Assembly (NCBI GenBank): GCA_026914155.1
Contig: JAPPGH010000049.1
Span: 1 to 64,000, forward strand
Length of the DNA stretch: 64,000 bases
Direction of reading: 5' to 3'
Origin: Candidatus Palauibacter rhopaloidicola
GTDB taxonomy: Bacteria; Gemmatimonadota; Gemmatimonadetes; Palauibacterales; Palauibacteraceae
Positions 5,739-11,351 of this stretch are shown here, one piece after another. How positions within the stretch are numbered: the stretch's first letter is position 1; every line of letters starts with the position of its first letter. Both the position numbers and the translations under genes were made by a program. The notes under the pieces were generated by a model, which worked only from the letters and a program-made list of their open reading frames with translations, was not told the DNA's origin and made no database searches.

Positions 5739-8700
5739 TCAGCGATCCGGGGGTTCCAGGATCCCCGGATCGTTGACGGCGTCCACCGCCACGACGAGCC
5801 CGGGGAGCCCCGCCCCGGCACTCCGGATGTCGGCGATCACATTCCGAATCCGGCTCAACCCCACCGCATTCCGGCGCCGGAAGGATCGCATCGCCTCTTC
5901 CGTCGTCGACGACTCGGAGCGGGCGATGATCTGCGCCGCCATGCGCGAACGCGCCAGCTCGAGTCGCGTGACGAGGATGCGCGCCGCCCTCTGATCCCAC
6001 GGATCGTCCGCGGCCAGCGAGTAGACGCGGCCCCGCAGCCACGGAAAGTCGATCTCCTCGGCGAGACCGAAGTACACGGCGCCGACCTCGCGCGTGCCGG
6101 CGCCCGTTTCCCGGATGAGGCTGGCAATCGGCAGCAGTTCGTCGACGTAGCGGAAGGTCGTGAGTCGCGCCGCGCCCTCCGGATCGAGGCCGTCCATCTC
6201 GTGCAATGAGCAGGTGGACTCGAAGCGTTCCAGCCGCTCGGCGGTGAGCAGTTCCGGCAGAGCCTCGCGGACGGCCCGCACGGGGTCGTGCAGCCACTCG
6301 ATCGCCTCGCTGACCGGCTCCGAGGGGTCGGTCCGCTCCAGGAGCCATCGCGTCGCGCGCGTCAGCGCGTCCGCCATCGCGAGGTAGCACTCGTTCTGCG
6401 CCCCGCTCCGCATCCGGACATCCGCGACGCGCAGCCGCTCGTACAGGTCCTCGGCGTCCGCGATCCGTGACGCGACGTACCAGGTGCGGGCGACGGTCGC
6501 GGCGGCGCGGCCGGTCTCCTCCATGATCCGGATGTGGCTCGTGGCGCCCATGCGGTCCACGTAGCGGTTCGTCAGCAGCATGCTCGAAATGTTCGGGCGC
6601 AGCCGGTGCTCCTCGAGGTCCGAGGTGTCGACCTCCTTCAGCGCCCCGAAAGGGAAGTAGTCCTCCACAAGTTCCATCATGGCCGGGTCGCGGGACACGC
6701 TGGATTCCGTGAGCGCATGCTTGAGGTGAAGCTTCGAGTAGGCCATCACGGTGGCGAGTTCCGGCCTCGTGAGGTGCGCCTCGGCGTTCTCCCGTTCGAT
6801 GAGCTCCTCCCCCGCCGGCAGGTATTCGAGGGCCGGATCCAGGATCCCCTCCCGCTCGAAGCGCTGGATCACCTCGCGGAACGTCGCGGGCGCGCGTCGC
6901 GCCCGGATGTAGTCGAGGCTGATGGCGAGGCTCTGGCTGTAGGTGTTGCGGAGAACCTTCCACGCGACCTCGTCCGTGCATTCGCGAAGCAGGTCGTTGC
7001 GCGCGTCGTAGTCGATCGCCCCGCGCGACAGCGGGGCGCCCAGCAGGATCTTCAGGTTGACCTCGTGGTCGGACATGTCGACCCCGGCGGAGTTGTCCAC
7101 GGCATCGGTGTTGATGCTCCCCCCGCGGAGCGCGTATTCGACCCGCGCGCGCTGCGTGAAGCCGAGATTGCCGCCCTCCCCGACGACCCGCGCCTGAATG
7201 GCCGTCGCATCGACGCGCGTGGGATCGCCGCTCGGGTCGCCGACATCCGCGTGACGTTCGGAACTCGCCTTCACGTAAGTGCCGATGCCGCCGTTCCAGA
7301 GGAGGTCGACCGGCGCCGACAGGATCGCGCGGATCAACTCGTTTCCGTTCATCTCCTCGCGATCGATGGCGAGGCGCTCGCGGATCTGCGGCGACAGGTG
7401 GATCTGCTTCTCCGTGCGGTCGAAGACGCCGCCCCCCTCGCTCAGGAGTCCGGCGTCGTAGTCGGCCCACGACGAAGCCGGGAGCTCGAACAGCCGCTTC
7501 CGTTCCTCCCACGACGCCTTCGGGTCCGGGTCCGGATCGAGGAAGATGTCGCGGTGATCGAAGGCGGCGACGAGCTGGATCTGCTTGCTGAGCAGCATCC
7601 CGTTGCCGAACACGTCGCCGCTCATGTCGCCGATGCCGACCGCCGTGAACGGTTCGTTCTCGTAGTCGATGTCCGCTTCGCGGAAGTGGCGCTTCACGCA
7701 CTCCCACGCACCGCGGGCCGTGATTCCCTCCTTCTTGTGGTCGTACCCCTGCGACCCGCCGGAGGCGAAGGCGTCATCGAGCCAGAAGCCCGCTTCCGCC
7801 GCAAGTTCGTTGGCCGTATCCGAGTTCTTCGCCGTCCCCTTGTCCGCCGCGACGACGAGATACGGGTCCGGTCCGTCGCGGATCACCATCCCCCGGGGTC
7901 GCGTCACCTCGCCATCGGCTACGTCGTCCGAGACTTCCAGCAGGCCGCGAATGAAGTCCCGGTAGCTGTCCAGCCCTGCCGCAAGCCTCCCCTCGCGATC
8001 TTCGGGCAGGCCCTTCACGATGAAGGCGCCCTTCGCGCCGCCGGGCACGATGACGGCGTTCTTCACCCGCTGCGTCTTCACGAGCCCGAGCACTTCCACC
8101 CGGAAGTCCCCGTAGCGGTCGCTCCACCTGATCCCGCCGCGCGCCACGTCGTCCATGCGCAGGTGGGCGGCCTCCGTTCGAGGGCCGCGTAGGTAGACCT
8201 CGTGCTTCGGCTTCGGCTCGGGAATGAAGTCGACGGAGCGGCTCGAGATCTTGAGCGCGAGAAGAGGCGAACGGCGCAAGTCGCCCCGGTAGTGGTTCGT
8301 GCGCACGGTCGCGTGGACGAGTTCCATCATCCGCCGCAGCGTCCGGTCGTCCTCGATCCCCCGTACCGAAGCAAGTCCGCGCGTGAACTCGCGCTTCAGA
8401 CGCCGCATCGCGTCGTCCGCCCCCTCCTGCGCCTCCGGATCGAAGCGCGCCTCGAAGGCCCGGAAGATGCAGCGTGCGATGCCGGGGTACGCCGTGAGCG
8501 GAAACTGGCCTCCCGTGGGAGCGGCGACGGCGCCGATGCGGAACGTGTAGCCCGCGTAGGCCCGGAGGACCGATACCTCCCGCCATGTGAGGCCGGCGGT
8601 CACGATGAGCTCGTTCAGCCGGTCATCTTCCGCCATCCCCGCCCGGATGGCCCGCAGCATGTCGCCGATCCGGTCCTGCGCCGCCGCGATGTCGAGGTCG

Positions 8701-10580
8701 CCGGCCCGCCGCGCCTCGGCCTCGAAGGACTGGACGCGCGCCGCGAACGTCTCTTCGGTAGCGTCGGGCGTCTCGTCCCTGAGCTGGATCGTAAAGCGGA
8801 GCGAGTCGAGCACCCGGAGCCCCAGGTTCTCGAGCGTGGGGATCACGTCGCTCAGGACGTAGTGACCCTTCCGGGCGTACAGCCGCAGCTGATAGTGCCG
8901 CCCGTCGCCCTCTTCGGGGGACCGCTTGAGCAGCACCTGGCTCTCGCCCGTCTCGGCCAGCCGCGCGAGACAGGCCACATCCTCGACCGCGGTGTCGATG
9001 TCCATCGCCGCCTGGTAGCCGGTCGAGAAACGCACGACGTGCGTCGCGAGTTCGTGGCCCCGCGTGGGGCCGTGGACGGCGTCGAGAGCGTCCTCGAGGC
9101 GTTCCTCCCAGGTGCGGACGATCGAGCGGACCTTGGCCTGGACGGCATCGAGGTCGACCGACCCCACCTCGTCCGGGTCGTGGGCCACGTAGAAGTGGAG
9201 GCGCGCCTGGTCGCCCTGGCCGAGCGCGAGATGATAGTTGAGGAGCGTCCCCCGGTAGGCCTCGATCAGCGCCGCCTGCAGCCGCCTCCGCACCTGCCCC
9301 GAGAAATGGGTCTTGGGGAGGATGACGAGGAGCTGGACGCCACGGCCGAGCTGGTCGGGACGCGCCGTGACCCGCACGTCGTCCCCGCCGCCGGTCGCCA
9401 TCACCGCATCGATGACCGAGCGGATCTCCTCCACCGAGGCGAGGAACAGTTCCTCCTTCGGCATCGAGTTGAACGTCCCCAGGATGACGTTGTAGTCGTG
9501 CGATCCGGGGGGCGCGGCTTCCAGCTGCAGGATCTCGCGCAGCTTGCGGCGCAGGATCGGGATGGAGGAGGCTTCCTGCGAGAACGCCTTCGCGGTGAAC
9601 AGACCGAGGAACCGGTGCTCGCCGTACACCGTCCCGTCCGGGCGCAGCCGCTTGATCCCCACGTAGTCCATGCGGACGTTGCGCCGAATCGGACTCTGGG
9701 CGTTGGTCTTGGAGATGATGAGAAGCGGGCCGCCCAGCACCCGGGCGCGAAGGTAGGCGGGGAGTTCGTCCAGGGGCCGCGGTTCGTAGTATTTCGATTC
9801 TTCGTCGTCCCTGAGGATCCCGAGCCCGCTCCCCTCGTCGACGTGGATCCAGTCGCGGCCGGCATCGTCCGTCTCGATGCGGTACGCGCGGTAGCCGAGG
9901 AAGACGAAACCGGGGTCCACGAGCCACCGGAGGAGGTCCTGGATCTCCTCGAACTCGGTGCTGCGCCACGGTGTCTCCCGCCGCTTGTCGTCGAGTTCGC
10001 CGACGAGCGTCTTCACCCGCTCGATCATGGGGGAGAAGTCCCCGGTGACGGCTCTCACGAGTTCGAGGCGCCGCCGCACTTCGGCTTCCAGCGTGTCGCG
10101 GACCTCCGCGTGGTGGGCGTCGTCGAGCACGATGTGGACGACCGACACGCGGGTGCCGTCGGCGGAGTGGTCGCGGATGTCGAGTACGCGTCCGGACGCG
10201 TCCCGGTCCACCACGACGACCGGGTGGAGAAGGAGCGGCAGGTCGAGCCCCGCCGAGTGGAGGTACTCGCGCAGCGTGTCGACGATGAAGGGCCGGTCCT
10301 CCATCACCGTCTGGAGCACGCCGCGCGACGGATCGTCCTCGTCCCAGGCGAGTCGGATCGCGATTTCGCCGTCGGCGGCGCCGGCCACGAGGCGGTAGAG
10401 GGCGGCGACATCGTCGGCCAGGGCGCGGACGGAGCGTCCGTCCGCGATGTGGGCGTAGCCGCGGCTGAAGAGACGGCGGGAGAGGCCGCGGACCGCTTCG
10501 CCGGGCGCATCCGGGAGTCGCGATTCGATCTCGCGGATCAGGGGCCCGAGGTCCGACTGCTGCGCAGGCTTGTTTTTCAT
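5739..10580 (-). CDS. NAD-specific glutamate dehydrogenase, large (GDH180) type
   Basis: Oxidatively deaminates glutamate to 2-oxoglutarate with NAD. The 1613-aa length fits the roughly 180-kDa bacterial class. An N-terminal regulatory half (ACT-like segments up to about residue 700) precedes the catalytic core, where GGIRWSDRYGDFRVEV and VPGGAKGAFIVKG (about 820-860) give the substrate-binding lysines, and VVGEGGNLGFTQRARVEYA belongs to the Rossmann part. A long C-terminal helical domain follows. The ATG at 10580 lies five bases after a -10 element, so the message is probably leaderless. The last codons contain a strong inverted repeat that may terminate both this gene and glnA. The divergent neighbour is the SelW-like gene. 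Confidence 0.95.
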   Translation of the reverse strand: MKNKPAQQSDLGPLIREIESRLPDAPGEAVRGLSRRLFSRGYAHIADGRSVRALADDVAALYRLVAGAADGEIAIRLAWDEDDPSRGVLQTVMEDRPFIVDTLREYLHSAGLDLPLLLHPVVVVDRDASGRVLDIRDHSADGTRVSVVHIVLDDAHHAEVRDTLEAEVRRRLELVRAVTGDFSPMIERVKTLVGELDDKRRETPWRSTEFEEIQDLLRWLVDPGFVFLGYRAYRIETDDAGRDWIHVDEGSGLGILRDDEESKYYEPRPLDELPAYLRARVLGGPLLIISKTNAQSPIRRNVRMDYVGIKRLRPDGTVYGEHRFLGLFTAKAFSQEASSIPILRRKLREILQLEAAPPGSHDYNVILGTFNSMPKEELFLASVEEIRSVIDAVMATGGGDDVRVTARPDQLGRGVQLLVILPKTHFSGQVRRRLQAALIEAYRGTLLNYHLALGQGDQARLHFYVAHDPDEVGSVDLDAVQAKVRSIVRTWEERLEDALDAVHGPTRGHELATHVVRFSTGYQAAMDIDTAVEDVACLARLAETGESQVLLKRSPEEGDGRHYQLRLYARKGHYVLSDVIPTLENLGLRVLDSLRFTIQLRDETPDATEETFAARVQSFEAEARRAGDLDIAAAQDRIGDMLRAIRAGMAEDDRLNELIVTAGLTWREVSVLRAYAGYTFRIGAVAAPTGGQFPLTAYPGIARCIFRAFEARFDPEAQEGADDAMRRLKREFTRGLASVRGIEDDRTLRRMMELVHATVRTNHYRGDLRRSPLLALKISSRSVDFIPEPKPKHEVYLRGPRTEAAHLRMDDVARGGIRWSDRYGDFRVEVLGLVKTQRVKNAVIVPGGAKGAFIVKGLPEDREGRLAAGLDSYRDFIRGLLEVSDDVADGEVTRPRGMVIRDGPDPYLVVAADKGTAKNSDTANELAAEAGFWLDDAFASGGSQGYDHKKEGITARGAWECVKRHFREADIDYENEPFTAVGIGDMSGDVFGNGMLLSKQIQLVAAFDHRDIFLDPDPDPKASWEERKRLFELPASSWADYDAGLLSEGGGVFDRTEKQIHLSPQIRERLAIDREEMNGNELIRAILSAPVDLLWNGGIGTYVKASSERHADVGDPSGDPTRVDATAIQARVVGEGGNLGFTQRARVEYALRGGSINTDAVDNSAGVDMSDHEVNLKILLGAPLSRGAIDYDARNDLLRECTDEVAWKVLRNTYSQSLAISLDYIRARRAPATFREVIQRFEREGILDPALEYLPAGEELIERENAEAHLTRPELATVMAYSKLHLKHALTESSVSRDPAMMELVEDYFPFGALKEVDTSDLEEHRLRPNISSMLLTNRYVDRMGATSHIRIMEETGRAAATVARTWYVASRIADAEDLYERLRVADVRMRSGAQNECYLAMADALTRATRWLLERTDPSEPVSEAIEWLHDPVRAVREALPELLTAERLERFESTCSLHEMDGLDPEGAARLTTFRYVDELLPIASLIRETGAGTREVGAVYFGLAEEIDFPWLRGRVYSLAADDPWDQRAARILVTRLELARSRMAAQIIARSESSTTEEAMRSFRRRNAVGLSRIRNVIADIRSAGAGLPGLVVAVDAVNDPGILEPPDR
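5744..5771. terminator. Convergent terminator-like inverted repeat, glnA / glutamate dehydrogenase
   Basis: GATCCGGGG (5744-5752) and CCCCGGATC (5763-5771) are perfect reverse complements with a ten-base loop. The structure sits inside the last codons of the glutamate dehydrogenase gene and 19 bases past the glnA stop. There is no T-tract, so it may act as a bidirectional stop together with Rho or as a transcript-end stabiliser. Confidence 0.5.
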
Positions 10581-10615: not shown

Positions 10616-10708
10616 CGGCGAACCTGCCGGACTCCGAATCGGAGCCCGCGCCGACGCGCGCGACGGGCCGTCGGAACCGAGAAAGGGACGACGAAAGGGG
10701 CGACCGGG

Positions 10709-10927
10709 ATGCATATATCCATCGAATACTGCGTCGTTTGAGAGTACGAACCGCAAGCCGCCAGTCTGGCGGCCACCCTCAGAGATCGGTTCGCGGACAT
10801 CGAGATCGAGATGATCCCCTCCGGCGACGGCCGGTTCGAGGTGGTGGCGGAGGGAAATCTCATCTATTCGAAGGCCGCCACCGGCCGGCACCCGACCCAT
10901 GAGGAGATCCTCGACGCGCTGGGCTAG
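10709..10927 (+). CDS. SelW/Rdx-family selenoprotein with in-frame TGA (Sec11)
   Basis: A 72-residue thioredoxin-like Rdx protein. It starts at ATG 10709 (MHISIEYCVV), meets TGA at 10739-10741, then continues in the same frame with EYEPQAASLAATLRDRF, FEVVAEGNLIYSKAATGRHP and THEEILDALG to a TAG at 10925. The TGA falls exactly at the second position of the family's redox motif, CxxC or CxxU, as Cys8-Val-Val-Sec11. Downstream conservation (a beta-strand, the hydrophobic YSK segment and the last helix) rules out a chance stop. A purine-rich AAAGGGG ribosome site precedes the ATG by eight bases, and a SECIS-like hairpin follows the TGA. The role is presumably thiol redox; partners are unknown. 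Standard gene callers would miss or truncate it. Confidence 0.85.
10757..10773 (+). promoter_or_regulatory. Candidate bacterial SECIS hairpin
   Basis: GCCGCCA and TGGCGGC form a perfect seven-pair stem around GTC. The apical loop is about 22 bases after the TGA, within the usual spacing of bacterial SECIS elements, and its first loop base is G, as SelB recognition usually requires. It lies inside the coding sequence, as expected for bacteria. Confidence 0.6.
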
Positions 10928-10991: not shown

Positions 10992-11351
10992 TCAACGGAC
11001 CCGCCCGTAGCGGTCCTCGAGGCGCACCAGGTCGTCCAGTTCCGGCGTGCTCACCTCGAGGATGATGCTGTCTTCGAGCGCCTCCATGCGGTGCACGTTC
11101 CCGGGCGGGATCGAGACCACCTCGCCCGGGAGCCACTCGAAGACCGCATCGTTGAGCGTGAAGCGCATGCGCCCGGACTGGAGCAGCATCGTCTCGTGCT
11201 TCACGAGGTGCTTCTGCAGCGAGAGGATGTGCCCCTTTTCGACTTCGAGAACCTTCCCCGCATAGCGGTCCGTCTGGGCGTACCACACCTCGCGCCCCCA
11301 GGGCTTGTCCACGATGCGGGGCTCGCCGCGGCGCGCCGGTTCTCGCTCCAT
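10992..11351 (-). CDS. Cupin protein, mannose-6-phosphate isomerase type II-like
   Basis: A 119-aa single cupin barrel. The opening DKPWGREVWYAQTDRYAGKVL is the hallmark of the C-terminal isomerase domain of type II phosphomannose isomerase/GDP-mannose pyrophosphorylase proteins, here as a stand-alone domain. HLVKHETMLLQSGRMRFTL and the IPPGNVHRMEAL segment supply cupin motifs with metal-ligand His and Glu residues. It probably binds or isomerises a sugar phosphate; without the nucleotidyltransferase domain the exact reaction is uncertain. A TATCAT box eight bases upstream of the ATG, in the context GTGTATCATGT, is shared with the next gene upstream on this strand. Confidence 0.82.
   Translation of the reverse strand: MEREPARRGEPRIVDKPWGREVWYAQTDRYAGKVLEVEKGHILSLQKHLVKHETMLLQSGRMRFTLNDAVFEWLPGEVVSIPPGNVHRMEALEDSIILEVSTPELDDLVRLEDRYGRVR

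Follow-up and report, generated by a model that had tools for sequence, protein, structure and literature searches.

Sequence evidence for a SelW-like selenoprotein gene in the genus Palauibacter (Gemmatimonadota)

The window analysed here, a stretch of 64,000 nucleotides from a genome of the genus Palauibacter (Gemmatimonadota), carries on its forward strand a selW-like gene (10709..10927) that starts with ATG at 10709, ends with a TAG whose last base is 10927, and encodes 72 residues when one TGA is read through. This TGA (10739..10741, forward strand), read here as selenocysteine, is codon 11 and the only TGA inside the frame, so that the first-pass annotation, which had described a frame broken solely at this codon, is borne out by both the sequence and its translation. 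The read-through product begins MHISIEYCVVU, and translation and alignment place the TGA in a redox motif of the CxxU type, Cys8-Val-Val-Sec11 (10730..10741, forward strand), whose Cys8 and Sec11 columns are invariant in an alignment of 22 sequences with Sec written as C. A putative, purine-rich ribosome-binding site was recognised by eye at about 10694..10700 on the same strand, and similar stretches occur upstream of the gene in relatives. Past the TGA lies a hairpin, a predicted bacterial SECIS (10757..10773, forward strand), with arms at 10757-10763 and 10767-10773 and a loop at 10764-10766; it starts 15 nt past the TGA and has seven pairs and the loop GTC, and is thus there as originally described (seven pairs, a G-first loop, 15 to 31 bases past the TGA). 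According to the list of open reading frames, the gene is flanked upstream by a divergent ORF of 1613 aa (5739..10580, reverse strand), presumably a large NAD-specific glutamate dehydrogenase, and downstream by a convergent ORF of 119 aa (10992..11351, reverse strand), which we take to be cupin-like. When the DNA around each of 30 loci (L021-L050) was compared, both neighbours were found at 10 loci and one of the two at 4.

For the profile searches and the fold model, Cys was put in place of Sec. The read-through product aligns above the respective cut-offs with the Pfam family Rdx (PF10262; E 5.8e-19, 68.5 bits, cut-off 22.6), with TIGR02174 (CXXU_selWTH; E 1.7e-16, 60.2 bits, cut-off 34.2) and with NF041051 (E 8.9e-27, 93.1 bits, cut-off 88). 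These matches, together with the CVVU motif, uphold the earlier proposal that the TGA occupies the second redox position of the C-x-x-C/U motif in the Rdx/SelW family. The structure model (mean pLDDT 96.8) shows a confident thioredoxin-like SelW fold, in which Cys8 lies at the end of the first strand and Sec11 between the first strand and the first helix, a placement found in thioredoxin-like redox proteins. At E <= 0.001, 22 PDB chains match the model, and every one belongs to an entry likewise detected by the sequence profile, the best solved match being 2fa8 (TM 0.92). The solved bacterial Rdx proteins (Agrobacterium Atu0228, 2fa8; Pseudomonas, 2obk and 2oka; Vibrio, 2p0g) have the same fold (best chains at TM 0.92-0.93 of the query) with 25-32% identity to the window protein. 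In the alignment, 2fa8 carries CTQC, in contrast to the CVVU of the window protein, and 2obk, 2oka and 2p0g presumably also have Cys at the Sec position. By profile, mouse SelW (2npb, E 6.8e-7) and human MIEN1/C17orf37 (2ljk, E 1.8e-15) belong to the same family, although these proteins are eukaryotic and that of the window is bacterial; in eukaryotic SelW, the SECIS lies in the 3' UTR.

Bacterial SelW-like selenoproteins have been described from the Sargasso Sea, from GOS and from sequenced genomes and, in the passages concerned, share with the window protein the Rdx/SelW domain with CxxU as well as a bacterial SECIS with a small apical loop and a conserved G (PMC1088965; PMC2398784; PMC1794560). 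The host differs from this earlier set, being here a member of the Gemmatimonadota, genus Palauibacter. Passages of these and related papers present the SelW-like family as the most numerous selenoprotein family in the Sargasso Sea and GOS sets (PMC2398784; PMC1088965; PMC9402790), with the Sec form commoner in GOS than the Cys form, 427 to 56 (PMC1088965; PMC2398784; PMC1794560), and, in 2006, with few Cys homologues in Sec-using organisms (PMC1794560). The function is called unclear in the relevant part of PMC1088965, where a redox role is inferred from the CxxU motif.

Across relatives, the selenocysteine codon was TGA, and no other codon, in all 86 loci read, namely the best 80 of 392 genomic relatives and 6 viral loci; these loci overlap partly with the genes of the set of 100 relatives described below, and two pairs among the viral ones are identical. 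The genome scan was without bias for TGA because one of its two patterns required Cys at this position and the other disregarded it. Among the 100 relatives, window genome included, 52 had a match, 49 of them with one TGA. The remaining three comprise G002 and G010, whose matches start 3' of the codon, and G063, whose distant homologue is 38% identical and has a CxxC motif, CTGC; in this genome, selB was absent at E <= 1e-40 and no tRNA-Sec was found over the cut-off. From these comparisons, the conservation of the TGA is far beyond chance. With the window copy as reference, dN/dS 3' of the hairpin was 0.15-0.39 in eight of nine congener comparisons, the ninth being saturated; therefore, the part 3' of the TGA is constrained as protein. 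The stretch 3' of the hairpin is under purifying selection.

A tRNA-Sec over the cut-off was found in 83 of the 100 relatives, with 47 of the 49 TGA-form genomes having one versus 36 of the 51 without the TGA form (Fisher p 0.0009, uncorrected for relatedness); the TGA form and tRNA-Sec thus go together. Matches below the cut-off were ignored, the lax threshold being reached by all 14 control genomes and the cut-off by five. Two genomes, G035 (a single-contig genome) and G094, have a TGA-form selW and selB over the cut-off, yet no tRNA-Sec over the cut-off; since both have selB, the tRNA gene may well have been overlooked or left unassembled. As a separate observation, ten relatives (e.g., G013, G044 and G099) show, beside the main tRNA-Sec, an additional match of lower score (48-60 bits) that still exceeds the cut-off and may be either a genuine second copy or a different long-armed tRNA.

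The window genome, available as a 63-contig draft (contamination 6.11%), contains tRNA-Sec (79.7 bits, cut-off 47; named tRNA-SeC(tca) by ARAGORN), selB (369.7 bits; contig C50, about 5 kb from the tRNA-Sec), selA (424 bits) and selD (369.3 bits), all on contigs other than that of selW. The Rfam gathering scan and ARAGORN gave no match in the 64,000-nt window; the tRNA-Sec lies on another contig. The use of selenocysteine in this lineage, which the first-pass annotation had deduced from the selW-like gene, is corroborated by tRNA-Sec, selA, selB and selD together with the conserved TGA. In addition, selD (L018, contig C7) has its own in-frame TGA within GAGUACK, followed by a predicted hairpin, and 3 of the 14 AhpC-TSA matches in the genome hold an in-frame TGA at the redox place, two as WUPYC (L193 and L194, contig C6) and one as TRGU (L199, contig C57). 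Predicted hairpins also follow the TGA in these three peroxiredoxin-type genes. Therefore, from the families looked for, at least five Sec genes are likely in this genome: selW, selD and the three peroxiredoxin-type genes.

The hairpin is weak evidence when taken alone and becomes strong only by comparison across relatives. When the same peptide was recoded synonymously 20,000 times, the window copy proved less stable than the average recoding (z +1.0): 85% of the recodings equal or surpass its fold, and seven pairs at the same place arise in 7.1% of them. The 58-nt fold gave z -0.93, with 31 of 200 shuffles as good; given this value and a stability below the mean of the recodings, single-sequence folding was rejected as proof of a SECIS. 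Covariation was assessed with 5000 shuffles on a set of 116 rows, corresponding to 95 distinct genes. Pair 18-30 (10759 with 10771, both third codon positions) is kept in 90 of the 95 genes versus 68.9 expected, a count reached in none of the 5000 shuffles, as CG (74), GC (9), TG (3), TA (3) or AT (1), with five genes unpaired. Kinship among sequences can inflate such results, and thinning, which lessens this effect and does not remove it, left the pair in 72/77 and 48/52 genes (each 0/5000). Three further pairs gave 0/5000, namely 21-27 (third-third; 94/95 paired, 91.1 expected), 19-29 (94/95, 88.3 expected) and 15-33 (third-third and beyond the stem of the window copy; 62/95, 45.9 expected). 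The signal was weaker for pair 20-28 (95/95, 93.0 expected, 195/5000); pairs 17-31 and 22-26 are invariably paired and hence uninformative, and the outer pair 16-32, which is open in 11 of the 95 genes, lacks covariation. The codons of the loop are similarly restricted: where the loop codes for Ser, the codon is AGT in 63 of 63 cases, although AGT makes up 19 of the 353 Ser codons in the rest of these genes; where it codes for Gly, the codon is GGT in 26 of 26 cases, versus 79 of 529 in the rest; and the remaining six loop codons are AGG. Therefore, covariation and loop codon bias together indicate a constraint on the RNA and not on the protein alone. With its small apical loop, its conserved G and a stem that covaries in relatives, the hairpin can be recognised, from these comparisons, as a bacterial SECIS.

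TGA-bearing SelW-like genes are also found in viral sequences. An IMG/VR scan with one phage SelW retrieved ten contigs (L180-L189) in five distinct gene groups, all ten with the TGA, and L165 is a further viral contig with such a gene. Eight of the ten phage copies have a predicted six-pair stem with a 3-nt loop at the same place as the bacterial hairpin, built from a different stem sequence; the remaining two copies are identical, and their predicted fold differs, although a shorter form of the stem with one mismatch can be made out in them by eye. From L165 and from one contig per group, 19 neighbouring proteins were scanned, of which 13 match phage families with E below 1e-10 (including baseplate wedge, UvsX-like recombinase, ssDNA-binding protein, thymidylate synthase, PhoH-like, Dda-like helicase and endonuclease VII), while a single one matches weakly and five not at all; phage-family genes thus lie near selW on the contig examined from every group. 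The SelW proteins of the viral contigs had no match in the phage-family scan, and tblastn of one phage SelW against 50,697 phage records gave none either. Over the cut-off, no tRNA-Sec was found in six viral records, representing L165 and three of the five groups. A literature search by title found no paper on phage selenoproteins, and the passages of PMC9402790 concerned report, for families besides RNR II, plastocyanin and Cu-Zn SOD, no or very few viral sequences in GOS.

Within the genus, 6 of 16 congeners have no intact selW (G001, G002, G007, G010, G014 and G016). G002 still has the locus with a neighbour on either side, and most of selW is deleted there, leaving a 3' remnant (L179), while in G010 the 3' part alone is left, beside the upstream neighbour (L178); both genomes have tRNA-Sec. 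No selW match was found in G001, G007, G014 and G016; selB is present in each of these genomes, and tRNA-Sec in G001, G007 and G014. Because congeners that have no intact copy retain Sec machinery, selW seems dispensable where the Sec trait stays, and draft gaps may explain some of the absences. In G060, from the same class, the gene (L175) has an in-frame internal deletion of roughly 30 residues and keeps the TGA and the hairpin sequence. The pattern named at the outset as speaking against selenocysteine, relatives in which the codon is surrounded by random substitutions and frameshifts, was thus encountered only where the gene is being lost: in G002 and G010, whose remnants are left from large deletions, and in G060, where the TGA and the hairpin persist beside the in-frame deletion.

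These remnants and the internally deleted copy of G060 show that the gene decays in some lineages, as would be expected if the TGA were a true stop and the gene were dead or truncated, whether as a pseudogene or through a sequencing error. However, the presence of TGA in every locus read, the coding constraint 3' of it and the Sec machinery of the genome make this explanation highly improbable. An open frame would likewise result from a genome-wide reassignment of TGA, e.g., to Trp, in which selenocysteine would not be involved. This we find barely credible, given that many relatives use TGA as the stop of selW itself, including the congeners L032, L033 and L041, that the position is the Cys/Sec redox site, and that tRNA-Sec(tca), selA, selB and selD are all present.

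The hairpin could also be regarded as a by-product of GC-rich codons for Ala-Ala-Ser-Leu-Ala-Ala, the read-through having some other cause, and the window copy by itself agrees with this, as its number of pairs is matched in the fraction of recodings given above and its energy is not exceptional. Yet such a by-product would hardly account for the compensatory synonymous changes at pair 18-30, for the exclusive use in the loop of AGT for Ser and GGT for Gly, both otherwise uncommon, or for the phage copies, which code for Ala-Leu-Ser-Leu-Arg and have, in eight of ten folds, the same hairpin position and loop size with another stem; therefore, we consider this possibility very unlikely.

What the sequence shows, namely an open frame with its redox motif, a TGA conserved in relatives and a hairpin that covaries, along with the machinery genes and the fold model, is best explained as a whole by a functional SelW-like Sec gene of the Rdx family with UGA decoding directed by SelB and the hairpin, and this is almost certainly what the locus holds. 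SelB, on the hairpin 15 nt past the UGA, would bring Sec-tRNA(UCA) to the UGA, and the ribosome, rather than terminating, would place selenocysteine at residue 11. The resulting thioredoxin-like protein of 72 residues would most likely be a small thiol-dependent oxidoreductase, in which Cys8 and Sec11 would, as the most likely chemistry, cycle between the selenol/thiol and selenenylsulfide states. Sec insertion, the binding of SelB to the hairpin and the redox activity are deduced here. Therefore, what the first-pass annotation observed is confirmed, and its reading as a selW-like selenoprotein gene is supported. A broader reading, in which the Gemmatimonadota SelW orthologue is Sec-only and is lost by deletion of the whole gene rather than by a change from Sec to Cys, and in which phages took up the same selenoprotein with a SECIS stem of their own and would rely on the Sec machinery of the host during infection, is put forward tentatively, as we judge it somewhat more likely to be wrong than right.

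Searches by title or by the beginning of the abstract found no paper on selenoproteins of Gemmatimonadota, and the string "Gemmatimonad" is absent from the main texts of PMC1794560, PMC2398784, PMC5029168 and PMC9312934. In the relevant passages, PMC8318568 names Gemmatimonadetes only among reconstructed genomes, and PMC8938466 reports selA, selB and selD in about half of the Challenger Deep genomes and mentions Gemmatimonadota elsewhere, these passages tying neither to the other. PMC5029168, in the part concerned, places SelD in almost all bacterial lineages, and an earlier listing of Gemmatimonadota in its supplementary tables is possible. In the main text of the paper on Palauibacterales (PMC10469786), the strings "seleno" and "selenium" are absent.

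The type of protein was already known, and the SelW finding alters no principle; what the sequence evidence now supports is a SelW-like selenoprotein in Gemmatimonadota. A gene caller for which TGA is always a stop would truncate or overlook selW and four other TGA-bearing genes in this genome, and the large set of orthologues offers a clear comparative case of a bacterial SECIS within a coding sequence. With these results, the Gemmatimonadota, a phylum of mostly uncultured bacteria, can be firmly counted among the groups that have the Sec trait and this already known selenoprotein family.
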